A DNA stretch of 36,891 nucleotides from Acidobacteriota bacterium (lineage in GTDB: Bacteria > Acidobacteriota > Terriglobia > Versatilivoradales > Versatilivoraceae): the NCBI GenBank assembly GCA_028875575.1, contig JAPPDF010000041.1, positions 1 through 36,891 on the forward strand, read 5' to 3'. A program made the translations under genes and the position numbers. Every line of letters begins with the position of its first letter. Positions within the stretch are counted from its first letter, which is position 1. The notes under the pieces are model-generated. The model was given only the letters and a program-made list of their open reading frames with translations, had not been told where the DNA came from and did no database searches. This document shows, in pieces, positions 6,428-20,119 of this stretch.

Positions 6428-7309
6428 CTAGACGAACTCCTCCATCAGATCGTCGAACAGCTCCTTTTCCATCCCGAGCTTCTGGTGAACCAGGGGGCCT
6501 TCCTTCAAGGCCGGTTCGCTCTCTTCGTAGGTCGGCTGCTCCTCCCGGTAGAAGAGGCCCAGGGGAATGCGATCCCCCCACTCGTAGGCCCGCTTCAAGG
6601 CTCCCTGATGGTCGGTGGCATCGTAGTCCGAGTCATCCTCCAGCTTGTAGACCCGCTTTTTGAACCAGGGATAGGTGTTGATCTTGTTGTAGGTCACGCA
6701 GGGACTGAAGACATCCACCAGGGCAAATCCCTTGTGGGCGATGCCGCCGGCGATGACATCGGCCATGTGCCTGGGCTCGCCTGAAAAGGCCCGGGACACG
6801 TAGGTGGCGCCGGAGACAATGGCCAGCGCGATGGGATTGAGGGGCATTTCGGCGTTCCCACGGGGGGTGGACTTGGTGCGCACCTCCTTCATGGTGGTGG
6901 GGGAGGCCTGGCCGGTCGTCAATCCGTAGATCTGATTGTTCATGACAATGTAGGTGAGATCCAGGTTGCGGCGCATGGCGTGCACGAAGTGGCCCAGACC
7001 GATGCCGTAGCCGTCTCCATCCCCGCCGGTGATCACCACGTTCATGTCCTGGTTGGCGAACTTGATCCCGGAAGCCACGGCCACGGCCCGGCCATGCAGG
7101 CTGTGGACGCCGTAGGCATGAATGTAGCCCGGCAGGTTGGAAGAGCAACCGATTCCGGAGACGGTGAACAGCTCCTCGGGCTTGATGCCCAGTTTTCCGG
7201 CGGCCATCTTGACGCCCCTGAGAACACCGAAATCGCCACAGCCCGGACACCAGTCCGGATCGATGATGCTTTCATAGGTGCTGATGGGTAAAGAAATCGT
7301 CATTTCCAT
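6428..7309 (-). CDS. korB: 2-oxoacid:ferredoxin oxidoreductase, beta subunit
   Basis: A 293-residue TPP-binding subunit that, with the alpha subunit upstream, decarboxylates a 2-oxoacid to acyl-CoA and reduces ferredoxin, reversibly. WCPGCGDFG at 20-28 provides two Cys of the [4Fe-4S] site, with further Cys at 55 and in FSPCVTYN. GDGDG at 96-100 with MNNQIYGLTTGQ is the TPP/Mg motif. Length and motifs fit the KorB/2-oxoglutarate branch, but pyruvate or other 2-oxoacids cannot be ruled out. The start is unclear: ATG at 7309 or 7303, neither with a good ribosome site. It lies 122 nt behind korA and ends in a strong terminator. No ferredoxin-like delta subunit is nearby. Confidence 0.93.
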   Translation of the reverse strand: MEMTISLPISTYESIIDPDWCPGCGDFGVLRGVKMAAGKLGIKPEELFTVSGIGCSSNLPGYIHAYGVHSLHGRAVAVASGIKFANQDMNVVITGGDGDGYGIGLGHFVHAMRRNLDLTYIVMNNQIYGLTTGQASPTTMKEVRTKSTPRGNAEMPLNPIALAIVSGATYVSRAFSGEPRHMADVIAGGIAHKGFALVDVFSPCVTYNKINTYPWFKKRVYKLEDDSDYDATDHQGALKRAYEWGDRIPLGLFYREEQPTYEESEPALKEGPLVHQKLGMEKELFDDLMEEFV

Positions 7310-7431
7310 AGGGGTTTAAGCCTCTCCATTCTTCCCGCGCCCGTTCAGCCGGCGCGCCAAATCAAATTCAAAGTAATTCCAAACCCGATCGATCTGTCGG
7401 TTGTGTCGCCGACTTCCGTCGGTTGTGCTTC

Positions 7432-9426
7432 TCAATCGGTGGATACCGTCGAGACCGGCTGCCAGGCATGGGTGGATCCGGTTCGCAGTCCGACGAACAG
7501 GTCTCCGGTCTTTTCGCCGCCGTTACGGCTCACCAGTTCGATGCACCAGGTGGGCTCTTCTGCCGACACGCCGTTCCCCACCTGCATGGAGGCCGGACGC
7601 ACCGAGTTGCCCAAATGGGTACGAATGTAGTGATAGGCAATCTCCTGTGCCTCCTCTCGAGTGACCTCCAGCGACAGCGACACGCCTCCCACGATCTCCT
7701 TGACCCGATTCACGATGAAGGCCGGCTCGAAAGGCTCCCCGTCATACTTCAGGACCATGTCATCCAGGGAGAAGCCGGTCTCGGACCTCAAATGACGGGC
7801 AAATTGACCCGTGTAGTTCACCTCCACGCCGATGGTCTTCCTGCATCCATTCAGGATTTCCAGGGCCTCCTTGGCGTGAAAGGGCAGCAGATACTTGAAA
7901 TGGAGCTGATTGGTGGCAATGCCTTCCGATCTCAGCATCTCGGCGGCTTCCCGAATCACTCCCCTGCAGGACCCCCAGCCGACCAGGGTGACATCCGCGT
8001 CCTCCGGCCCCTCGATTTGCGGAGGCGGCAACTCCTTCAGGGCTCCTTCCAGCTTCCTCATGCGCTTTTCCTGCACCTTGCGCCGCACCGGCGGACTGGT
8101 GTACTCGTCGCTGATCAGAATCCCTTCCTCGTCGTGGTCATCGGTGGGAGAAACGTAAACCGTGTTCTTGGTCCCGGGCAGGGCTCGGGGAGATATTCCC
8201 GATTCGGTGAAAGCGTATCGCTTGTAGGTGCCGTTGTCTTCCGGCCATTCGGTCACCAGTTGGCCGCGGTCGATCACCAGATCGGGCTTGAGCGCATCCC
8301 TCTCGATGGTCTCGGGATGTTCCGAGAGCAGCAGGTCGGAGAGAATGATCACCGGGAGCTGGTACTTGTCCGCCAGGTTCAGGGCTTCGGCGGCGGTATA
8401 GTAGGCTTCGGTCACGTCGGCCGGAGCCATGATGATGCGGGGGAAATCGCCTTGGGAAGCCCCCAGCGCCTGGTTCAGATCGGCCTGTTCGGTCTTGGTG
8501 GGAATCCCGGTCGAGGGACCGCCACGCTGGACCGTAATGAACACGACCGGCGCTTCAATCATGCCGGCCTGCCCCACGGCTTCGGTCATCAGGGCAAACC
8601 CGCCGCCCGAGGTCGCACACATGGAGCGAGCCCCGGCCAGGCCGGCGCCGACAGCCATGTTGGCGACCGCAATTTCGTCCTCGCACTGCTTGACCACGAT
8701 CCCGCAACGATCGGCATGAGCGACCATCCAGTGCAGGATGGTGGAAGCGGGGGTCATGGGGTACGCGGAATAGAACTTGCAGCCGGCGGCGACCGCCCCC
8801 AGGGCCATGGCTTCGTTTCCGGTAATGAAGGGTCTCCGGATGCGGCTGAAGTTCCATTCGTACCCAAGAGGCACGAACTTATCCTTGGCGTAGTTGTAAC
8901 CCGCCTTGGCCACCTGGATGTTCTGGTTGACCACCTCCTGGCCCTTGTGCTGGAAGGTGTCGGCCAGGACTTCGGCCATCATTTCGAAATCCAGTCCCAG
9001 CAGGAAGATGGCCGCTCCCAGGGATACCGTGTTCTGCATGACGGGAAGGGTTTTCCCCAGCGGCTTCAGCAACTCCCGCACGGGCATCGGCACCGGCAGA
9101 ACCTGGCTTTCGAAAAGCGAGGAGTCGAGGGTCAGCTTGTCGGAATTGAACAGGACAGCTCCGCCGGGCTCCACTTCCCGGGCATGCCTCTCCAGGGTGT
9201 CCTGGTTGAGCGCGATCAGCAGATTCAGGTGATCTCCGTGAGAGTAGACCTTTTCCTCTCCCATCCTCACTCGCAACCAGATGTGGCCCCCGCGGATGAT
9301 GGACTGGTAACTGTTGTAGGCATACAGATACAGCCCCAATCTGGAGGCGGTCTTGGCAAAGGTGTCGCCGGTCTTGTCCAACCCGTCGCCGGCGGCTCCT
9401 CCTATTCCCAAGGTCACTTCTTTCAT
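7432..9426 (-). CDS. korA: 2-oxoacid:ferredoxin oxidoreductase, fused gamma-alpha subunit
   Basis: A 664-residue subunit. Residues about 1-190 form the gamma domain (GIGGAAGDGLD near the start, then YNSYQSIIRGGH). About 200-430 is the pyrimidine-binding domain of the alpha subunit (YSAYPMTPAST, GGPSTGIPTKTEQADL), and about 490-580 the second alpha domain (VTLVGWGSCRG, LPF). The gamma-alpha order is typical of the KorA type. The last roughly 80 residues are an extra segment with a TREEAQEIAYHYI helix and a strand-rich end, resembling a PepSY-like fold by eye. The ATG at 9426 has AAAGGAGA 6 nt upstream. It is the first gene of the korA-korB unit. CoA-acylating oxidation (or CO2-fixing reduction) of 2-oxoglutarate or a related acid is the expected reaction. 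Confidence 0.93.
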   Translation of the reverse strand: MKEVTLGIGGAAGDGLDKTGDTFAKTASRLGLYLYAYNSYQSIIRGGHIWLRVRMGEEKVYSHGDHLNLLIALNQDTLERHAREVEPGGAVLFNSDKLTLDSSLFESQVLPVPMPVRELLKPLGKTLPVMQNTVSLGAAIFLLGLDFEMMAEVLADTFQHKGQEVVNQNIQVAKAGYNYAKDKFVPLGYEWNFSRIRRPFITGNEAMALGAVAAGCKFYSAYPMTPASTILHWMVAHADRCGIVVKQCEDEIAVANMAVGAGLAGARSMCATSGGGFALMTEAVGQAGMIEAPVVFITVQRGGPSTGIPTKTEQADLNQALGASQGDFPRIIMAPADVTEAYYTAAEALNLADKYQLPVIILSDLLLSEHPETIERDALKPDLVIDRGQLVTEWPEDNGTYKRYAFTESGISPRALPGTKNTVYVSPTDDHDEEGILISDEYTSPPVRRKVQEKRMRKLEGALKELPPPQIEGPEDADVTLVGWGSCRGVIREAAEMLRSEGIATNQLHFKYLLPFHAKEALEILNGCRKTIGVEVNYTGQFARHLRSETGFSLDDMVLKYDGEPFEPAFIVNRVKEIVGGVSLSLEVTREEAQEIAYHYIRTHLGNSVRPASMQVGNGVSAEEPTWCIELVSRNGGEKTGDLFVGLRTGSTHAWQPVSTVSTD

Positions 9427-9949: not shown

Positions 9950-10543
9950 TCATTCCGTCAGGACTTTCCTCAATCGGTGGGCCGACTCGGCCAGCGAGGG
10001 TTGCAGGTACGCCACCGGCTCCCCCTTGCGGCTGCGGGAAAGCGGACCTTCGGATCCGGGTTCGACCCGGGCATTCACAAACACCGGCCCGGGTTCCCGC
10101 AGAATCGTGGGAAGGGTCCGAGCATAGTTCGCCGGGTCGTCGAAAGCGTAGGTCCGGGCAAAACCCGCCGCCTGGGCCAACCCGGTGAAGTCCACCCGGC
10201 CGGCGCCCGCAATGGCTTGATTGCCGGTGATTTCAAAGGTCCGATTTTCAACCGTGAAGAGGATCAAGTTGGGGGCTCCGGCTTCTACTACCGTCGCCAG
10301 GGAGCCCAGAGTCATCAAGAGGCTGCCGTCACCGTTCAGGCAGATGACCTTGCGTTGGGGCTGGGCCAGGGCAATGCCCAGGGCCAGATCGGCAACGTGG
10401 CCCATGGCGCTGTCCGCCGAGGCGAAGTCCAAGGGGCTGTCCGAGAACCTGGACCAGGGCCGCACAGCGCCCATCGTGGTCACCACCACCTCGTCCGTCC
10501 TCAGTGACGCCAGGGGTTGCAACAGTTCCTGCTTGGTCAACAC
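9950..10543 (-). CDS. Sulfopyruvate/phosphonopyruvate decarboxylase-type TPP enzyme, beta half
   Basis: A 197-residue protein corresponding to the C-terminal, pyrophosphate-binding half of a TPP-dependent decarboxylase. GDGSLLMTLG at 71-80 followed by the Asn near 100 (TVENRTF) is the TPP/Mg motif, and TMGAVRPW near 23-30 resembles ComE and the C-terminal part of phosphonopyruvate decarboxylase. Such beta chains act only with an alpha chain carrying the activating Glu; the matching alpha is encoded at 18241-18780, not next door. The start is GTG at 10543 (or TTG at 10540), two bases after the stop of the upstream gene, so it is translationally coupled. The frame is open upstream to 11071 but there overlaps the preceding gene. 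The substrate is uncertain: sulfopyruvate, phosphonopyruvate or another 2-oxoacid. Confidence 0.85.
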   Translation of the reverse strand: MLTKQELLQPLASLRTDEVVVTTMGAVRPWSRFSDSPLDFASADSAMGHVADLALGIALAQPQRKVICLNGDGSLLMTLGSLATVVEAGAPNLILFTVENRTFEITGNQAIAGAGRVDFTGLAQAAGFARTYAFDDPANYARTLPTILREPGPVFVNARVEPGSEGPLSRSRKGEPVAYLQPSLAESAHRLRKVLTE

Positions 10544-10545
10544 GA

Positions 10546-11778
10546 TCAGGATCCGCAAAAACAGGATTCGGCGGAGGGCCGGTACTCCAGCATCAGTTCC
10601 GGAGTGTCCAGCGTCACGCCTTTCTTTTTTCTGGATTCCATCCAGCGATCCAGGATGCCGGCGGCGACCCAGGCCCGTTCGGGGCGAACCGGACTTCGCG
10701 TGGATCGAATCAGGTCCTCGATCCGGGCGGCGAGACAGGCCGAGCCGGCACGGTTGGGTTCCGGGGGGAGAAGGAACTGGGTCGATGCCACTCCCGAAAC
10801 GTCGCCCAGACGGGCCGCAAAGGTAAAGTCTCCCACGGCTCCATTGAGCATCAGAACGGCAGCACTCAGTCCGTCGGAATAGTCCACCAGGCAGGCTTCC
10901 GGATGTTCGACCAGCCGGGGCAACTCCCCGGTGTCGACAAGATCCCGGGGACGCCCGTCCTTCAAGGTCTTGCCCTGCAGGGAATCGGATCGGGCCACGG
11001 CTGCCTTCAGCAGATCCCGGGACCAACGGCCGCTGTTTCCGGCCCGCCACACGGCTTGCCCCCCCACCCATTGTACCGACCTGACACCGGTCTCGCCGCC
11101 CCCGCGCCGCTCCACCATGGCCTGCAGGGTCTCCAGGGCCCGATAGCGATCGGAGCGCCCGAAGCCGATGCCCACCAACAGGGCCTGCTCCACCCGGCTG
11201 CCCGTCGGCAACTCCAGAGGAGGCAGCCTCCAGGTCATCGGCAGAAAGGATCCGGCCAGCACCGGGAATTTCAGTTGCCTGGAGGCTTCCGCCATCCTGC
11301 GGGCTTGCGCGAGGCCGAGCGGTTCATCCCAATAGACCGGAACGGCCCGGCGGTCCTCCTCAAAGACCTTGACCAGTGGCTCAAGCAAGTCGGACCCCGT
11401 GAGGGCGCTGCGCGAATCGTCTCCCTGTCCGGTTAGCATCAACACCCCGTCCACGGCCAACCGGTCCCTGCCGCAACGCAGGGTTTCGGCGACGGATGAG
11501 TAGATCCTGAAGCCGAATTCGGCCGCGCGCTCCCGGCTCTGGTCAGCATCAGGAGTCCGGTCCACGTAGAGAGAGATCACATCCATGGCGGGCCGGTGCC
11601 ACCTGCCCTCTCGCGGATAGCCGATAAGGAAGCGGTCTGCGACCTGGCGGGCCGGTGAGCCGGGAGTCCAGCGGGAAGCCAGGATGGCCAACCTCTTGGC
11701 GCCTGGCCGGGCTCGGTTCGTCAAGCTGGCCGCGGGGGAAGCCGAAGCCGTTTTCAGGAAAGTGCGCCGCTCCGTCAC
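10546..11778 (-). CDS. Exported protein of unrecognised family, paralog 2 (Gfo/Idh-like remnants)
   Basis: A 410-residue protein with a Tat-type N-terminus (ERRTFLKTA, residues 3-11), although the hydrophobic stretch after it is weak. The body is collinear with the gene upstream: D-RFLIGYPREGRWHRPAMDV-SLYVD, then AVDGVLM, WDEPLGLAQARRM, PVLAGS-LP-TWRLPPLELP, and AMVERRGGGETGV. The order (periphery-like strand, DGVLM, -EPL-A-A--M-, AGS) recalls Gfo/Idh/MocA oxidoreductases, but the glycine-rich nucleotide loop is replaced by ASRWTPGSPA, so cofactor binding is doubtful. Start GTG at 11778 overlaps the upstream stop as GTGA; the stop lies 2 nt before the decarboxylase beta start. Likely periplasmic; function unknown. 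Confidence 0.75.
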   Translation of the reverse strand: MTERRTFLKTASASPAASLTNRARPGAKRLAILASRWTPGSPARQVADRFLIGYPREGRWHRPAMDVISLYVDRTPDADQSRERAAEFGFRIYSSVAETLRCGRDRLAVDGVLMLTGQGDDSRSALTGSDLLEPLVKVFEEDRRAVPVYWDEPLGLAQARRMAEASRQLKFPVLAGSFLPMTWRLPPLELPTGSRVEQALLVGIGFGRSDRYRALETLQAMVERRGGGETGVRSVQWVGGQAVWRAGNSGRWSRDLLKAAVARSDSLQGKTLKDGRPRDLVDTGELPRLVEHPEACLVDYSDGLSAAVLMLNGAVGDFTFAARLGDVSGVASTQFLLPPEPNRAGSACLAARIEDLIRSTRSPVRPERAWVAAGILDRWMESRKKKGVTLDTPELMLEYRPSAESCFCGS

Positions 11779-13115
11779 GAGTGTCTCCGATAGGTGGGTT
11801 CGGGAGTAGGTCGATAGCGAACCGCCAGGTGGGACGTTTCAAGGCGACTCTGCCCTCGCCACAGGGAATCCACGCCCGCCTCGGTCATTCCGCCGGTCAG
11901 CAGGGTCCGTTCCACTGGGTAGGTTGCCTTGCCGGTCAGAAACATCTTCTCGACGCCATTCACCTGCGGGCTGAAGAAGTTGGCTTCGGCGCCCCCGCCC
12001 AACCCGCGCACCGGAAGGTAAAAGTGTGTTGAAACCAGCCGCGGCGGGTTTTTCAGACGGGCCGCAAAGGTCCACCCCATGGAGAGACCTTCCAACAGAA
12101 GCAGCGTGGCTTTCATCCCGTCGGCATATTCGCAGCGAAAGGCCAGAGGCTGATCCAGTTGAGGGCCGGTGTCGGTGACCCGGTCCTTGACCAGCCCGGG
12201 TATTTCCTCCAGGGACGGGTAGCTGTGGTCGAAGCCCTCCCGGGTCGAGGTCAGGGCCAGGCTGCGGCAAAGGCAGGCCTCGAAGAGTTCGGAATCCCAT
12301 CCACCCTGGTCCCAGGATCCCGCGCGCAGCGCCTCCCACACCCTGGGACCGCGGACCGCTCCCAGCGCTGCCACCCCGGTTTCCCCTCCCCGCCGCCGCT
12401 CGACCATGCACTGCAGCGCCTCGAACCCGTGAAAGCCGTAGCTGTCGGCTCCGCCGCCGGCCCCGATCACCATGGCCTCTTCCACCTCGGCGTCCGAGGG
12501 AATCTCCAACGGGGGAAGGCGCCAAGCCACCGGAATACTGGAGCCGGCCATCAGGGCAAAGTCCAGCTCCCGGGCCGTTTCCACCATCTCCTCGGCCCAT
12601 TCCCATTTCCAGGAGAGGTGCTTGTCGTTGAAAACCGGCGCGCTGCGGCCGCTGGCCCGGAAGACGTCCACGATCTGCCGGAAGAACTCGTAGCGTGGAT
12701 ACATGGTCTGCCCCTTCTCGTTGCGGGGGTAGGTCCCGTGCTCTCCGATCAGCAGGACGCCGTCGACCGCCAGATTGTCTCCACCCCGCGTCAACGCTTC
12801 GGCGATGGTGGGATAGATCTTCATGGAGGGGTATTGGCGTGCCCGGTCGCGGCTGAGATCGCTCTCTCGTACCTGGTCAACGTAGAGCGACACCACGTCC
12901 ATGGGGGGGCGGTGAAATCGACCTCCCCAGTTGTAACCGCCCAGGAAGCGGTCCACGATGTGCTGGCCGTGGGCCCGGCGGCGGTATTCGGTGACCAGGG
13001 CGGCAATCCTGGGGCGTCCGGGCGTTACGGGACGGCAGCCCGTGAGCAGCAGAGCCGCGGGTATCCCCGCCATCACCGTCCTGCGGGAGATCATTGGAAG
13101 CCGGGAAGGGGTCAT
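11775..13115 (-). CDS. Exported lipoprotein of unrecognised family, paralog 1 (Gfo/Idh-like remnants)
   Basis: A 446-residue protein beginning with a twin-arginine motif and lipobox (SRRTVMAG at about 10-17, then LLLTGC), so probably a Tat-exported lipoprotein. Motifs shared with the next gene, in order: DRFLGGYNWGGRFHRPPMDV, SLYVDQ, YPTIAEAL, AVDGVLLIGEHG, VFNDKHLSWKWEWAEEM, LMAGSSIPVAWRLPPLEIP, GFHGFEALQCMVERR, GGETGV. The EHG and NDKHLS-A--M positions match where Gfo/Idh/MocA enzymes have their EKP-type motif, but the dinucleotide loop is missing. Start ATG at 13115 is preferred over 13094 because it gives a fuller n-region; neither has a good ribosome site. The frame stays open upstream to 13547, inside the MBL gene, which I reject. 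It is 44 nt behind the MBL gene. Function unknown. Confidence 0.75.
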   Translation of the reverse strand: MTPSRLPMISRRTVMAGIPAALLLTGCRPVTPGRPRIAALVTEYRRRAHGQHIVDRFLGGYNWGGRFHRPPMDVVSLYVDQVRESDLSRDRARQYPSMKIYPTIAEALTRGGDNLAVDGVLLIGEHGTYPRNEKGQTMYPRYEFFRQIVDVFRASGRSAPVFNDKHLSWKWEWAEEMVETARELDFALMAGSSIPVAWRLPPLEIPSDAEVEEAMVIGAGGGADSYGFHGFEALQCMVERRRGGETGVAALGAVRGPRVWEALRAGSWDQGGWDSELFEACLCRSLALTSTREGFDHSYPSLEEIPGLVKDRVTDTGPQLDQPLAFRCEYADGMKATLLLLEGLSMGWTFAARLKNPPRLVSTHFYLPVRGLGGGAEANFFSPQVNGVEKMFLTGKATYPVERTLLTGGMTEAGVDSLWRGQSRLETSHLAVRYRPTPEPTYRRHS

Positions 13116-13159
13116 GGGAAGAACTCGGGGGAGGTTTGTTCGTTGGTGCCAAGCGCCGG

Positions 13160-14131
13160 CTAGGGTCCGCCCAGAATTTCTCCGTGAGGCTTGCCCTCGG
13201 CGAGTTCCGCGTACCGCACTCGCACCTGTTCCGCAAAGCGATTGCCGACCCAGTTGCCGACGTCGTCCGACAACTTCACGGTCGTAGCCACGCCGGCTCC
13301 GTCCTCCAGCGTCACCAGGTCTTCCAGCGGCGTCTTGCCCTCGAAGGCCTTCTCGACGGCAGCGTTGATTTCCTGCAAGAACTGCCGCTGCCCTTCGGCA
13401 ACCTCTCGACCTCCCGAGGAGCCGTGGCCCGGTAGGATGGTTTCGAAGCCCAGCTCCATGGCCTGGCTGACCACATTCGGCCAGTTGCCCGTGTTGCCGT
13501 CGCCCGTGTAGTTGAAGGGCCCGTTCACGATCGCGTCGCCCGTGCAAAGGATCTTGTCGTCCGGCAGATAGACCATGCCGTCACCGCGCGTGTGGGCCCA
13601 TCCGAAGTGATGAAACTCCACCCGCCGGCTGGCTCCCTCCAGCACGTGCGGGACCTGGCTGAACGTCTTTTGCGGGAGTTGCACCGTATCCTCGCCCACG
13701 GCGGCCACATCCTCGCGGTTCCGGGCCGCTTGCTGCCAGCGGGCAGGCTCGTAGCGCTTCATCTCCTCGGCCACGCCGATATGTGCCAGCGTGGTGGCGC
13801 CGGCCCGGGTCCAGACCGCATTGGCATAGGCATGGTCCCCGTGATGGTGGGTGTCGAACACGTAGCTGACCGGCTTGGTGGTGACCTGCTTGATATCCGC
13901 CATGAGCGCCTGGGCGCCGCTCGGGAAGTTGGCGTCCACCACCAGCAAACCTTCTCCGAGGTCAATGACCACGTTGTTGCAGTGTCCGTGCTCCCGCTCG
14001 CCCATCCGGAACCACACCCCCTCGGTGATCCGCTTGAGGGTGTCGGTCTCGGAAGGAAGGGGCGGATCTGAGGCGCAGTTCCAGGCCACGCAAAGGCCGA
14101 TCGCGGTGATGGCTATGAGGACGATTCGCAT
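13160..14131 (-). CDS. Secreted MBL-fold metallo-hydrolase
   Basis: A 323-residue exported hydrolase of the metallo-beta-lactamase fold. A signal peptide (MRIVLIAITAIGLCVAW) ends near C19, a poor lipobox. The zinc motif THHHGDH sits at about 94-100, followed by AHTRGD, CTGD and PGHG, so the binuclear metal set is complete. The order is that of class B-like secreted MBL hydrolases also found in quinoprotein-associated and SoxH-like groups; an actual beta-lactamase role is not implied. The start ATG at 14131 has GGAGG about 7-8 nt upstream; a longer frame to 14227 lacks this. It is the first gene of a four-gene minus-strand unit and faces the Cache/SBP gene divergently. Confidence 0.88.
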   Translation of the reverse strand: MRIVLIAITAIGLCVAWNCASDPPLPSETDTLKRITEGVWFRMGEREHGHCNNVVIDLGEGLLVVDANFPSGAQALMADIKQVTTKPVSYVFDTHHHGDHAYANAVWTRAGATTLAHIGVAEEMKRYEPARWQQAARNREDVAAVGEDTVQLPQKTFSQVPHVLEGASRRVEFHHFGWAHTRGDGMVYLPDDKILCTGDAIVNGPFNYTGDGNTGNWPNVVSQAMELGFETILPGHGSSGGREVAEGQRQFLQEINAAVEKAFEGKTPLEDLVTLEDGAGVATTVKLSDDVGNWVGNRFAEQVRVRYAELAEGKPHGEILGGP

Positions 14132-14509: not shown

Positions 14510-16501
14510 ATGAAAGGAAATCGCTCTCCATTTCTGATTTTCCTGATCTTGCTCCATGCCGCCGTTCCGGCTTTCGTTGCCCAGGGGGGCGCTGAACCGT
14601 TGTCTTGTTCGGATCGCTCCATATCCGCAAGCGCTGTACGCACACCGGAGGACGTTCGGGCGTTCGTTCAATGCGCCTACGAGTTCGTTCAGGAAGTGGG
14701 GTTTGAGCAAGCCCGCAGGGCCTTTCATGAGGACGAGCATTGGAGAAGCGGCCCGATCTATGTCGTCGTCGACGAAGTGACCCCCATAAGCCATCAGGCT
14801 ACAACCTTCGTCTACCCCCCCGATCCATCGAGGGAAGGGACTCCGTGGGGGCTCCTGATCGATGGCTTCGGCAATGACTGGTTCAAGGAACAGCATCGTA
14901 TCGTGAGCGACTTCGGCGAGGGCTGGATGTATTACTCCTTCACCAACCCGGAGACGGGCCGGGATGAACCGAAGTTTGCCTACTTCAAGAGCCTCGTCTG
15001 GGAGGGGACCCCGGCTGCGATCGGTGCCGGTGTCTACCCCCGCGACATCCCGGCCGCGTGCCGGAGGGATGAAGTCAACGCCAGGAGTCTTGAGGCCGAT
15101 CCTTCTCCTGAGAAACTTCAGGAGTTTGTCCGTTGTGCCGCGCTCGATCTGGAATCGCAGGGGTACTTTGGCACTGTCGCCCTGTCAACCGATCCGCGCT
15201 GGAGGAGCAACTCGATTTACGTATTCGGTTTGGACAACTATGGCAATACATTGTTCACCGGCCACCCCTACAGCCAGGGGAACGGCCTCAGCGAATCCGA
15301 GTTGGATGCCGATTTAAACGCAGCCCTTCAGGGCCGGGACGTGGTTAGCGTTGCGGACACGTTCGGGGAAAGCTTTCTCTACTACTGGGCGCACAGTCCG
15401 GCCACCGGATTGCCGCAGCGCAAGAGGGCTTTCGTCAAGAGGGTCGTGATCCACAGTCTGCCGGTGCTGGTTGGCGCCGGATTCTACATGGATTGCCCGC
15501 CTGCCGGATGCGGCACTGGCTCAGGGACCCCAGAGGGCGCGACCGCGGCGGCCTGCGAAGCGAGCCGGGAAATGCTGGCTGAATCACCGGCCATGCGCGT
15601 CAATTACGGTTTCTATACCGATTTCAATCCGATAAGTTACTCGGTCGCGTTGGCGGTCCACCAACCGATGGGCTATGAGCCGGACCTGGTCGCTGCCCTC
15701 GAGACGTTTTCTAAGGGAAAGCTGAGCTTCGACACGTTGGGGATCGGCAATCCCTTCTCCGGGATCTGGCTCAAAGCAGCGCAAGAACGTTACGACATGG
15801 TGGGTGGCGGCATCACCGCGTTGCCTGAACGCACGCGGGATGCAAACTGGCGCCAAGTGATTCGCTTCGGCGTGGCCCATATCAGCTTCCGCCAATCGCT
15901 GTTGGTGCGCTCCGAGAGTGCCATCAACCGGCATGCCGATCTGACGTCAGAACATAGCGTGGGCGTGCTGCGGGGCACTACGGGCGAGAAACGGCTATTG
16001 GAGCTGACCGGCATCATCGATGCCGAGGGCGTCCTCCGCGGCGGGACGCAAGTGCAGCTGGCCGGCGGCGATGTCTTGATCGCCGGAGAGCCCGACAGCG
16101 GGGCGGTTCTGCGCATAGCCGCCGGCACAGGTTCTGTCGCCATTGCTACCCGTGTCCGCCTGGCACCGGCCGGGGATAACCACCCCGAAGTGCTCTATTT
16201 CAACAGCGACAGCGAGCAGCTCAGTGCGTTGCTGGAGGGTGTCGTGGATGCCGTCGCACGGGGGGAGCTGGGCAACCGGGTAACTGCACGCGACACACCG
16301 GCCCTGCGCGTGACCGCCATCGACACGGAGGGCAGCGAATGGGGGGCCTTCAGCTATCCCTACACGCCCGCCGGCAATGCACTGCGGAGGGCCATGAATT
16401 CAGCCATCACTTGCCTGACCGCGAACGGGACCATTGGGTTTTCACAATGGCTCGAAAGCGGGGGCACGATCTTCTCCGAGCGCGCCAAGGAATGGCGCTG
16501 A
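14510..16501 (+). CDS. Secreted Cache-Cache-solute-binding (SBP_bac_3-like) fusion protein
   Basis: A 663-residue exported protein. A signal peptide (about 1-25) precedes two Cache-like units (about 40-330), about 70% identical by eye in the first unit to the gene at 295-1257, with the same four Cys in the arrangement LSC/VQC and AAC/VRC. After a Gly/Ser/Thr-rich linker with Cys (PPAGCGTGSG), residues about 360-600 read as a family 3 periplasmic amino-acid-binding domain (RVNYGFYTDFNPISY, GYEPDLVAAL, YDMVGGGITALPERT). Thus a ligand-sensing Cache pair is joined to an ABC-type binding fold, with no membrane anchor or signalling domain. The ATG at 14510 has AAGGATGGA upstream. No transporter permease or ATPase gene lies nearby, so the partner is unknown; a soluble receptor or scavenging role is possible. 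Confidence 0.82.
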   Translation: MKGNRSPFLIFLILLHAAVPAFVAQGGAEPLSCSDRSISASAVRTPEDVRAFVQCAYEFVQEVGFEQARRAFHEDEHWRSGPIYVVVDEVTPISHQATTFVYPPDPSREGTPWGLLIDGFGNDWFKEQHRIVSDFGEGWMYYSFTNPETGRDEPKFAYFKSLVWEGTPAAIGAGVYPRDIPAACRRDEVNARSLEADPSPEKLQEFVRCAALDLESQGYFGTVALSTDPRWRSNSIYVFGLDNYGNTLFTGHPYSQGNGLSESELDADLNAALQGRDVVSVADTFGESFLYYWAHSPATGLPQRKRAFVKRVVIHSLPVLVGAGFYMDCPPAGCGTGSGTPEGATAAACEASREMLAESPAMRVNYGFYTDFNPISYSVALAVHQPMGYEPDLVAALETFSKGKLSFDTLGIGNPFSGIWLKAAQERYDMVGGGITALPERTRDANWRQVIRFGVAHISFRQSLLVRSESAINRHADLTSEHSVGVLRGTTGEKRLLELTGIIDAEGVLRGGTQVQLAGGDVLIAGEPDSGAVLRIAAGTGSVAIATRVRLAPAGDNHPEVLYFNSDSEQLSALLEGVVDAVARGELGNRVTARDTPALRVTAIDTEGSEWGAFSYPYTPAGNALRRAMNSAITCLTANGTIGFSQWLESGGTIFSERAKEWR

Positions 16502-16904: not shown

Positions 16905-18176
16905 TCAGGCCACCCAGATGTCCCGGCTGACGATCGACTCCGGTGTCAGGACCTCATGGCCGGTTTCCGTCACCAGCACCACGTCCTCCAGTCCGTACTT
17001 GTTGCTCACCTCCCAGAGGGGATACCCGCCCCGGTGGTAGAAGAATGGCTCAACGCACAGCACCATGCCGGGTTCGATCCGGGTTCGGCTGCCGATGGAA
17101 ATCCCCGGCATTTCGTGGATGTCCAGTCCCAGGCTGTGCCCGATGCTGGACCAGCCCATGGCCTGGCACCAGTCCACGAAGTCGGGATGGCCCGCGTCTC
17201 GAATGACCTGTTGGGAAGCTTCATAGACCTCCCCCAGGCTCGCGCCCGGCTTGACTGCCTCAATGGCCGCCTCCTCGCTGGCCCTGGCGATCTCGAAGCC
17301 GTGCCGTTGATCGGCGGTCGGTTCTCCCAGGCAGGCAAACCTCTTGAAATCAGCGAAGTAGCCGTCATAGGTGCAGCCGCCGTCAAACTGGAGCAAGCTT
17401 CCCGGACCGAGGACCATCTCCCGCCGAGGCGTGGAATCGGCCCACAGGGCCCTGTCGGGCCCCGCGTAGAGAGCCAGAAAGTGGATCTGGCTGCCACCCT
17501 CGGCGTGCATCCGGGCCGACATGACGTTGGCGATGTCCCGTTCGGTCTTACCCTTGCTCATGGCCTCGAAACCGGCCTTCACCCCCAAACAGGAGATGCG
17601 GCACGCCTCCCGCAACCGCCGCACCTCTTCCGGGGACTTGATACGGCGCACGGCCCACATGATTTCCCCGCAATCCACCCAGTCAACCGCTGGCAAGGCT
17701 GCCCGAATGCCATCGAAGCATTCCACCGATAGTCCCATGCGGAAGTGGGCGCTCAGCTCGGTGGCCACGCGGGCCCGTCTCAGGCCCAGCTTCCCCAACC
17801 AGGATGCCGTGGCTCGCACCAGGCTCTCGCCGACGCTGCCGGTATAAAATCCCACCGGAAAGTCCCATCGGACCACGGTCTTCACCCAGGCGGCCTCGGC
17901 CTGAATCTGGCATCCTTCGGGGCAGAAAACGGCTGGAGGAAGGTCCGCCCTTCTCGGGATGAAGGCCGTGTAGAAGTAGGCGGGCACGATCCAGCCTACT
18001 TCATAGAATCCAGTGGCGTAGCGCACGTTGGTCTGCTGCGTCAGCAGCAGTCCGTCGACGCCCGACCGCTCCATCTCCTCCCGGAGCCGTTCCAGGCGTC
18101 GCTCAAACTCCTGCCGGCTGCAGTCGGCAAAAAATCCGCTCCGCTTCTGGCGGGTGACCTTCAGGCTGTCGGGCAT
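16905..18176 (-). CDS. M24 family metallopeptidase (Xaa-Pro peptidase-like)
   Basis: A 423-residue cytosolic pita-bread-fold enzyme. The N-terminal creatinase-like domain (about 20-170) includes LTQQTNVRYATGF. The C-terminal catalytic domain has all five metal ligands: D265 (FDGG), D276 (YFADFKR), H347 (GHSLGLDIHE), E376 (CVEPFF) and E397 (YGLEDVVLVT). The family includes Xaa-Pro dipeptidases, creatinases and DddP-type DMSP lyases; sequence alone does not separate them here. The ATG at 18176 has GGGAG about 6 nt upstream. It is the last gene of a minus-strand unit, 64 nt behind the decarboxylase alpha gene, so it may process a substrate or product of that enzyme. Confidence 0.92.
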   Translation of the reverse strand: MPDSLKVTRQKRSGFFADCSRQEFERRLERLREEMERSGVDGLLLTQQTNVRYATGFYEVGWIVPAYFYTAFIPRRADLPPAVFCPEGCQIQAEAAWVKTVVRWDFPVGFYTGSVGESLVRATASWLGKLGLRRARVATELSAHFRMGLSVECFDGIRAALPAVDWVDCGEIMWAVRRIKSPEEVRRLREACRISCLGVKAGFEAMSKGKTERDIANVMSARMHAEGGSQIHFLALYAGPDRALWADSTPRREMVLGPGSLLQFDGGCTYDGYFADFKRFACLGEPTADQRHGFEIARASEEAAIEAVKPGASLGEVYEASQQVIRDAGHPDFVDWCQAMGWSSIGHSLGLDIHEMPGISIGSRTRIEPGMVLCVEPFFYHRGGYPLWEVSNKYGLEDVVLVTETGHEVLTPESIVSRDIWVA

Positions 18177-18240: not shown

Positions 18241-18780
18241 TCAATCTGAATTCATGTCCCGGGTTACCAGCAGGGCGACCGGAGTCGACAGACGATGCGC
18301 CTTTTCGACCCAGGCTTTGACCTTGGGAACGTCCTGCTCCTCGTGGAGATAGTCGAAAGGCAATCCCCAGGCCTGCAATGTGGGTTCGGTGAGCAGCGCC
18401 GCCGAATCCACGTCGGGACGGCTCAACAGATGCGGGTCGAGCTTGCCGGGTCGCGGCCCGACGCGTTCCAGCTTGGCATAACCCCGGAAGGTGATCAGGC
18501 AGAGGAGCGGGATCCTCATCCGCAGAACCGTGCCGCGAAAGCTGTCTCCGCTCTCCAGCAAGCCGGTGTTCTGAATCAGGACGGCCGGGACCCGGCCTCC
18601 CATCCAAAGCCCGGCTGCCATGGCGAAAGCCTCCCCTTCGCGGGTGACCAGGCGGATGACCGGCTCCCCGCCATCCTTCAGCAGGGAGAACAGGGCCGCC
18701 GAGCTGTTGTCGGGCAGCCCCACCAGGTCGGTGACTCCTGCCCTGCGAAGCGCCTCGACAATGGACCGGGCCTTGGCCAT
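18241..18780 (-). CDS. Sulfopyruvate/phosphonopyruvate decarboxylase-type TPP enzyme, alpha half
   Basis: A 179-residue chain matching the N-terminal pyrimidine-binding half of a TPP decarboxylase (ComD or N-terminal phosphonopyruvate decarboxylase type). The activating Glu is in LVTREGEAFAMAAG (E48 or E50), followed by AVLIQNTGLLESGDSFRG, the family's MQNSGLGN equivalent, and PLLCLITFRGY. It needs a beta chain, most likely the one at 9950-10543, about 7.7 kb away on the same strand. The ATG at 18780 is four bases after the stop of the PQQ propeller gene, so the two are likely translated together. Usually comD and comE are adjacent or fused, so the separation is odd. The substrate (sulfopyruvate, phosphonopyruvate or other) is not resolved. 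Confidence 0.87.
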   Translation of the reverse strand: MAKARSIVEALRRAGVTDLVGLPDNSSAALFSLLKDGGEPVIRLVTREGEAFAMAAGLWMGGRVPAVLIQNTGLLESGDSFRGTVLRMRIPLLCLITFRGYAKLERVGPRPGKLDPHLLSRPDVDSAALLTEPTLQAWGLPFDYLHEEQDVPKVKAWVEKAHRLSTPVALLVTRDMNSD

Positions 18781-18784
18781 GACG

Positions 18785-20119
18785 CTATCTCAAAGCCAGG
18801 TCGAAGCAGGCCATTTCCTGGGAATTTCGTACCAGCAGCAGTCCTTCGGAGATGGCAGGGTGATTCCAGGTCCTGCCACGAATCGCGGAGAAGCGGGCCA
18901 GCTCCTGCTGCCGCTCGGGATCGGCCTTGACCAGCACCAGCTCGCCCGACTCGGTCAGAACGACAAGGTGGTCCCCGGCCAACAGAAGCTGTCCATGCCC
19001 GTACCGGCCACCCTTCCACCTGAGCTCGCCGGTCTCGGCCCGGATACAGGCCAGGATTCCTTCGTCCAGCCCGTAGATGAATCCGTCCTTCAGCACCGAG
19101 CAGGTGAACTTGTTCTTCATGCGGCGATTCTGCCACAGCGCGCTGGCCTCAAAACTTCCGGAAGTCCTTTTCACCTGCACCAGCGCCGCGCCGTGGCCGT
19201 AGCCCGCCGAGATAAAGACCCGACCCTGCCCCAACACAATCGGTTGGGCGACGTTGACGTCATAGTCGGTGATCCAGGGGAATTCCCAGAGGAGAGACCC
19301 ATCCTCGCCCGAGAGGCCCATCATCCGCCTGGCGCTCACGATCAGAAGCTGGGGTTGTCCGGCAAGGGTCACCCACATGGGAGAGGTGTAGGCCTGCTTG
19401 TCACTCAGCGATTTCCACAACGCATTCCCCGTCTCTTTGTGGTAGGCAGCCACCGATCTGCCACGGGAGCCTCCCGGCAGGACAATCACCTTCTCACCCA
19501 CGATCAGGGGCGAAGCGGACATGCCCCAGGTCAGGTTTTTGGCCCGACTGTCCCGCAGAATGTTCCGAGACCAGATCAAACGCCCCTCGGAGGCATCCAG
19601 GCAGTGCAGCTCTCCGGTGGCGCCCAGGGCGTAGATACGGCCTTCGTGCCAGGTGGGAGTGGCCCGAGGCCCGTCCCCGCCCAGGGACTCGTCGAAGAAG
19701 GCCTCCCAGGAATGGGTCCAGATCTCATCTCCCGTCCGTATATCGTAAGCCGCCACCACTTCCCGGGAGTCGCGCTGCTCGATGGTGAAGGCCCGCCCCT
19801 CAGCCAGCGCCAGGGAGGCGTATCCGCCGCCGACGGTCCGACGCCAGAGGGGCTTCAATCCCTGCTCGGGCCAACGGGTGAGGATGGGGGCTCCCCGATA
19901 GTGGCCGTCGCGCCTCGGCCCTCTGAAATCGGTCCATTCCTCGGCACTTGATGGGGCCGCCGATGCGGTGCCCGCAACCCCGGCAATGGCGGGAGGCAAC
20001 GCGGCCCCGGATGGCCTGCTCCCACTGCCTCTCCAAAACGGGAGTACAGCCATGGAAGCCAGCACCCCGCACACCAGACCCCGCATCAGGCTCGAACGCA
20101 TCCAGGCTCTCAGGATCAT
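18785..20119 (-). CDS. Exported PQQ-type beta-propeller protein, paralog 1
   Basis: A 444-residue exported protein. The N-terminal hydrophobic segment (about 13-28) and Ala-rich linker precede a WTDFRGPRRDGHY motif. Repeated propeller blades follow, with G-(I/R)-W and TG-(E/L/N)-W motifs: YDIRTGDEIWTHSW, CLDASEGRLIWSRN, AYHKETGNALWKSL, LSGEDGSLLWEFPW, CIRAETGELRWKGG. These are PQQ-like repeats of the BamB-type structural family; residues for PQQ or metal chemistry are not evident, so a scaffold or binding role is as likely as catalysis. The ATG at 20119 is set by AGGAGG only 4 nt upstream; the frame is open to 20296. It heads a three-gene unit with the decarboxylase alpha and M24 genes. A paralog lies at 26078-27445. 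Confidence 0.88.
   Translation of the reverse strand: MILRAWMRSSLMRGLVCGVLASMAVLPFWRGSGSRPSGAALPPAIAGVAGTASAAPSSAEEWTDFRGPRRDGHYRGAPILTRWPEQGLKPLWRRTVGGGYASLALAEGRAFTIEQRDSREVVAAYDIRTGDEIWTHSWEAFFDESLGGDGPRATPTWHEGRIYALGATGELHCLDASEGRLIWSRNILRDSRAKNLTWGMSASPLIVGEKVIVLPGGSRGRSVAAYHKETGNALWKSLSDKQAYTSPMWVTLAGQPQLLIVSARRMMGLSGEDGSLLWEFPWITDYDVNVAQPIVLGQGRVFISAGYGHGAALVQVKRTSGSFEASALWQNRRMKNKFTCSVLKDGFIYGLDEGILACIRAETGELRWKGGRYGHGQLLLAGDHLVVLTESGELVLVKADPERQQELARFSAIRGRTWNHPAISEGLLLVRNSQEMACFDLALR

Follow-up and report, generated by a model that had tools for sequence, protein, structure and literature searches.

Gene content and organization of the locus

The window, i.e., the whole 36,891-nucleotide stretch of DNA analysed here, belongs to an Acidobacteriota genome and carries on its minus strand two adjacent genes, designated A and B, embedded in a longer gene row. 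From the upstream end, the features are as follows.

18785..20119 (-): exported PQQ-type beta-propeller protein, start set by inspection
18241..18780 (-): TPP-enzyme alpha half (TPP-alpha), TIGR03845-like, below the cut-off; upstream partner of the beta half
16905..18176 (-): protein of the M24/Xaa-Pro-peptidase family, lying between TPP-alpha and the MBL gene
14510..16501 (+): Cache/solute-binding family 3 protein, opposite strand, splitting the gene row
13160..14131 (-): metallo-beta-lactamase-fold (MBL) hydrolase carrying a signal/lipobox-like segment at its N-terminus; neighbour at the genus level
11775..13115 (-): protein A, 446 aa, Tat signal and lipobox-like LTGC, predicted Gfo/Idh fold
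10546..11778 (-): protein B, 410 aa, GTG start, B-clade paralog with a degenerate putative active site
9950..10543 (-): TPP-enzyme beta half (TPP-beta), GTG start, PF02775, phosphonopyruvate/sulfopyruvate decarboxylase-like, below curated cut-offs
6428-9426 (-): 2-oxoacid:acceptor oxidoreductase alpha (TIGR03710) and beta, KorA/KorB, directly after TPP-beta; kept in genus mates

The GTG start of B overlaps the stop codon of A in a 4-nt GTGA, TPP-beta begins 2 nt past the stop codon of B, and the beta-propeller gene lies 4 nt upstream of TPP-alpha. The gene order, the sizes of A and B, the overlap and the 2-nt gap had all been described in an initial annotation and were reproduced on re-reading; the paralogy of the two proteins is borne out by 34% identity over 441 columns (E 6e-70). 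The same annotation had credited the locus with only half of a decarboxylase. A missing half is ruled out: the alpha gene lies upstream in the same window and on the same strand, so the decarboxylase looks complete. Scores against the sulfopyruvate decarboxylase models TIGR03845 and TIGR03846 (57.7 and 100.3 bits) are below the respective cut-offs (147.95 and 221.5), and the phosphonopyruvate decarboxylase model TIGR03297 (cut-off 312.5) gives 101.3 bits for the beta and 42 bits for the alpha half, a split enzyme being penalised here because this model spans both halves.

Predicted fold and the cofactor loop

The AlphaFold2 model of A, built on a 73-row alignment, reaches pLDDT 89.9 and pTM 0.88, and its residues 32-430 match the Gfo/Idh/MocA fold in Foldseek and VIA-align comparisons. 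The best structural match is GenD2 with Z 26.7 (against 6nor, rmsd 3.2 over 295 residues), followed by inositol dehydrogenases (Z ~25), KanD2 and oxidoreductive sulfoquinovosidases, nearly all entries in the match list being Gfo/Idh oxidoreductases. The model has the two-domain arrangement of a Rossmann domain and an open-sheet C-terminal domain, and a profile-profile comparison of the A/B family with eleven Gfo/Idh proteins encoded in the genome of the window gives a probability of 89 (P 2.3e-6). Gfo/Idh landmarks had been read from the sequence at the outset, and these matches uphold them, with a reservation about NDKHLS/WDEPLG: the EKP-type lysine is present in A as K165 (DKH of NDKHLS, 100% of A-type proteins), and the B of the window has E at this site.

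The Gfo/Idh match is confident, yet the glycine-rich dinucleotide loop is absent, as the initial annotation had stated. In the profile-profile alignment GxGxxG falls opposite V-T-E-Y-R-R, ahead of a conserved SHAQH, and EKP opposite DKH; none of the three loop glycines (positions 41, 43 and 46) is consensus in A, in B or in the single-copy clade. The PF01408 profile gives no match above its curated cut-off for A, B or the 73 aligned members, and none of its 39 matches in the genome of the window falls on an A/B-family gene. The loop following beta-4 is replaced in the family by the segment EHGxYPxNEKGQxxYPRY. The acid ending beta-2 is kept at position 80 (D in 75% and E in 24% of A-type proteins), and the candidate Asp/His pair of the C-terminal domain, D224 and H229, is invariant in A-type proteins at a spacing one residue longer than that of inositol dehydrogenase. 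With these residues and the lysine kept, an unusual mode of NAD(P) binding may persist in A. Of 67 reference positions, defined by at least 95% identity in both the A and B clades, A in the window keeps 66, including H49, H52, E125, H126, K165, D224 and H229.

Distribution of the family

Scans of A and B against Pfam and NCBIfam returned no covering family and no family name, B giving only a sub-threshold TAT_signal match; a Pfam scan of the 73 aligned members yielded TAT_signal and chance matches only. Sequence searches of the PDB gave only chance matches with A alone; the 73-row profile retrieved nothing beyond Gfo/Idh, at E 1.2. No relative was found in the viral contigs searched, and no description of the family in the open-access literature searched. 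GTDB contigs hold at least 543 relatives, the best 80 of which underlie the detailed comparisons. These 80 bear ten phylum labels, mainly Acidobacteriota, Poribacteria and Planctomycetota, with Gemmatimonadota, Latescibacterota, Chloroflexota and Verrucomicrobiota among the others; labels of some metagenome bins are doubtful, as L049, labelled Acidimicrobiia, is the same as a genome from the taxonomic family to which the window belongs. Within the phylum of the window the distribution is patchy (at least 11 of 297 genomes at E 1e-20, a lower bound because few candidates were scored in each genome), and all six sampled genus mates possess the family. The A/B family is real and widespread, and represents a known fold in a form that none of the family libraries searched has named.

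Seven A/B-family genes are present in the genome of the window, two of them forming a second tandem pair on another contig (C80:132878-135405), which is non-degenerate and has a cupin/SMP-30 lactonase protein nearby; in a relative of that pair (L166), genes for SMP-30 and HpcH aldolase come next. A third clade consists of single-copy members with SHAWH replacing SHAQH, many of them from Planctomycetota and Verrucomicrobiota (L016, L036, L097, L110, L115, L120, L122, L123 and L127). A distant relative with 31% identity (L167, 8422-10272) resides on the conjugative actinobacterial Arthrobacter plasmid pHiyo8-1, about 8 kb from genes annotated as phosphonopyruvate decarboxylase and PEP phosphomutase.

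Pairing and co-diversification of A and B

Most loci among the best 80 of at least 543 relatives hold two genes. In the tree, all first genes fall into clade A (99*) and all second genes into clade B (98*), with A first and B second in 65 of 65 two-gene loci. As judged from the sequences, A and B are two ancient clades in fixed order, probably arising from one duplication that preceded their spread across phyla; the redundant pair originally suggested finds no support. The two co-diversify: their distances correlate with a Mantel r of 0.72 (0 of 2000 permutations as high), rising to 0.81 once five loci with a degenerate B are left out. A-B fusions occur in four genomes, three of related Chloroflexota and one of Gemmatimonadota, as chains of 810-817 residues with a Pro-rich linker between the A and B parts. 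An AlphaFold model of one fusion (pTM 0.74) is compatible with packed halves but only suggestive, owing to an uneven alignment in which single rows were placed on the second half only. At one locus (L088, 9185-11303) A and B, otherwise adjacent, are separated by about 2.1 kb, and another (L109, 7923-11937) carries a run of three family genes, of which one is A-type and the others are B-type.

Degeneration of B

In the window, B keeps 47 of the 67 invariants, with H49, H52, E125, H126, Y129, Q136, R141, K165, D224 and H229 among the residues lost; the median B of the family loses none. The losses are common to genus mates at the sites inspected. Pairwise dN/dS within the genus is 0.28 for B (range 0.21-0.41) and 0.115 for A, indicating that B is still under selection, albeit less tightly. 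In L052 and L104 B has decayed in a similar way, possibly on separate occasions; the grouping of these long branches in the tree may be an artefact. From its residues, B in this genus is probably non-catalytic. The initial suggestion of a non-catalytic pair is supported to the extent of this one member, its putative site being lost.

Export signals

Reading of the N-termini in 66 pairs revealed a signal on neither protein in about 25, on B only in 17, on A only in 16 and on both in 8. Automatic scoring for Tat signals gave 25 pairs with a signal on neither protein, 16 with B only, 14 with A only and 5 with both, but misjudged several loci (e.g., L049, L051, L055, L058, L060, L076, L085, L089 and L098). 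With about 25 of the 66 pairs lacking any signal, export is no inherent property of the family. Exactly one subunit carries a Tat signal in about half of the pairs, which suggests export of a folded heteromer; Tat export of folded heteromers led by the signal of one partner is described in PMC4273604 and PMC10924467.

Both proteins of the window have a predicted N-terminal signal, that of B being weak, in line with the initial claim that both are exported. The N-terminus of A, SRRTVMAGIPAALLLTGC, fits a Tat lipoprotein as had been proposed, although the lipobox is inconstant within the genus (LLARC in L023/L048). Across the genus the signal is kept in A and is weakening in B, where RH stands in place of RR in L040.

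Genomic neighbourhoods

In the genus of the window the row runs propeller, TPP-alpha, M24, MBL, A, B, TPP-beta, KorA and KorB, and is found whole or in part in four genus mates (G001, G002, G004 and G006), as far as contig ends permit; some genomes have insertions in it. The M24 gene is kept in G001 and G006 and reduced to a 44-aa remnant at L048. The Cache/solute-binding gene, which interrupts the row in the genome of the window and in G002, is outside the module. At L160 (9045-14064, G001) the MBL gene and A are about 5 kb apart, with a DUF1501 protein encoded in the interval. Phosphonopyruvate is a conceivable substrate; a PEP-mutase-family protein is encoded elsewhere in the genome, outside the window.

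Among the loci fetched outside the genus, none had close TPP-beta or MBL homologues beside the pair. The initially proposed tie of the pair to the TPP decarboxylase and MBL hydrolase therefore stands within the genus only, where alone the order of two paralogs followed by TPP-beta was seen, and a TPP/MBL core module of the family is ruled out. The conserved unit is the A-B pair, rather than the operon.

Elsewhere, the commonest neighbour is the creatininase family (14 of the best 80 of at least 543 relatives, in three phyla); others include RraA, MR/MLE, MFS and sugar-type TIM barrel proteins, with SMP-30 lactonase and HpcH aldolase beside the C80 pair or its relatives. Neighbour clusters that were shadow ORFs or overlapped A/B were left out. 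These neighbours hint at sugar-acid, lactone or cyclitol catabolism; as the neighbourhood is loose and varies by phylum, they lend the substrate class weak support.

Proposed function and alternatives

The best overall explanation, to which we assign a probability of roughly 0.55, is a heteromer of Gfo/Idh-fold paralogs, with A active and B its partner, Tat-exported in the folded state and acting on a sugar-type substrate. Gene order, fusions and co-diversification suggest that the products of the single early duplication would be the two subunits of this heteromer. A would be the subunit carrying the putative active site, with chemistry relying on a Lys/Asp/His set resembling the one in Gfo/Idh enzymes and on a His/Glu-rich pocket (SHxxH, EHGxYP, NDKHLS) which, from topology and conservation, may occupy the place where the NAD(P) pyrophosphate normally sits. 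B would be the partner subunit, turned pseudoenzyme in the genus of the window. Assembly probably takes place in the cytoplasm, after which the complex would cross the membrane folded via Tat, led by the signal of A; its substrate is most likely a sugar-, sugar-acid- or cyclitol-type small molecule. A bolder extension, unlikely in its entirety, would make the family heteromeric, often Tat-exported enzymes using a Gfo/Idh scaffold without a dinucleotide site, in which a new His/Glu-rich, perhaps metal-dependent pocket performs sugar or cyclitol chemistry and B repeatedly turns into a pseudoenzyme.

The retained beta-2 acid, EKP-type lysine and candidate Asp/His pair would also suit an NAD(P)-dependent dehydrogenase with a remodelled phosphate loop, in which A holds the dinucleotide tightly and is exported with it in the folded state, B being structural. 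Tat export suits such a prebound cofactor, and the exported GFOR (1h6d, 1rye) is among the fold neighbours of A; we nevertheless regard this reading as doubtful, on a par with the bolder extension, given that no loop glycine is consensus in any clade, that PF01408 detects no family member and that EHGxYPxNEKGQ takes the place of the post-beta-4 loop. Much less probable is that the pair is no enzyme and instead binds a ligand as a sensor or regulator, built on the Gfo/Idh scaffold as yeast Gal80 is. The ranking of Gal80 among the best Foldseek matches of A, the vanished cofactor loop and the persistence of B after losing its site speak for it; against it, the polar site is near-invariant in A and in most B proteins across phyla, which suits catalysis, many members are exported, and genes for transcription or signalling are not among the recurrent neighbours of the pair. 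Somewhat more credible than the dinucleotide reading, yet still tentative, is that in the genus of the window the pair shares a pathway with the complete TPP alpha/beta decarboxylase, e.g., supplying or removing a 2-oxo acid, which is compatible with the heteromer proposed for the family. TPP-alpha and TPP-beta bracket A and B in genus mates, and only 2 nt separate B from TPP-beta, but TPP and MBL genes occur at no other family locus fetched, A and B bear export signals and the TPP enzyme bears none, and the C80 pair in this genome is flanked by different genes.

With at least 543 loci in several phyla, the family has escaped Pfam, NCBIfam and PDB sequence searches despite its very common oxidoreductase fold. 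The family lends itself to testing how a dinucleotide enzyme might shed its cofactor loop while retaining a conserved polar site. Intact pairs, fusions and degenerate B proteins together form a natural series for following the conversion of a duplicated subunit into a pseudoenzyme, and the one-sided Tat signals provide a clean test case for the export of folded complexes.

Comparison with known systems

TPP-alpha and TPP-beta match split sulfopyruvate/phosphonopyruvate decarboxylases best, with both halves below curated cut-offs and with genes that bracket A-B instead of being adjacent. With Gfo/Idh/MocA enzymes (PF01408; GenD2/KanD2, inositol dehydrogenase) A shares the fold over model residues 32-430 (Z ~25-27), the EKP-type lysine and the beta-2 acid, and it keeps a candidate for the Asp/His pair; A and B differ from them in lacking GxGxxG and any PF01408 match, in the EHGxYPxNEKGQxxYPRY segment and in the obligatory-looking pairing. 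The glucose-fructose oxidoreductase (GFOR) of Zymomonas, likewise an exported Gfo/Idh-fold protein (A has Z ~23 to 1rye), travels through Tat with bound cofactor and keeps the classical NADP loop, whereas A and B lack this loop and are paired. Gal80, in which the Gfo/Idh fold is used without catalysis, ranks high in Foldseek; A differs in its conserved polar site, its bacterial origin and its frequent export. In Tat hitch-hiker complexes such as PaoABC (PMC4273604), the signal of one partner can serve the complex; in the A/B family, where export is predicted from the signals, the signal-bearing partner alternates between lineages.
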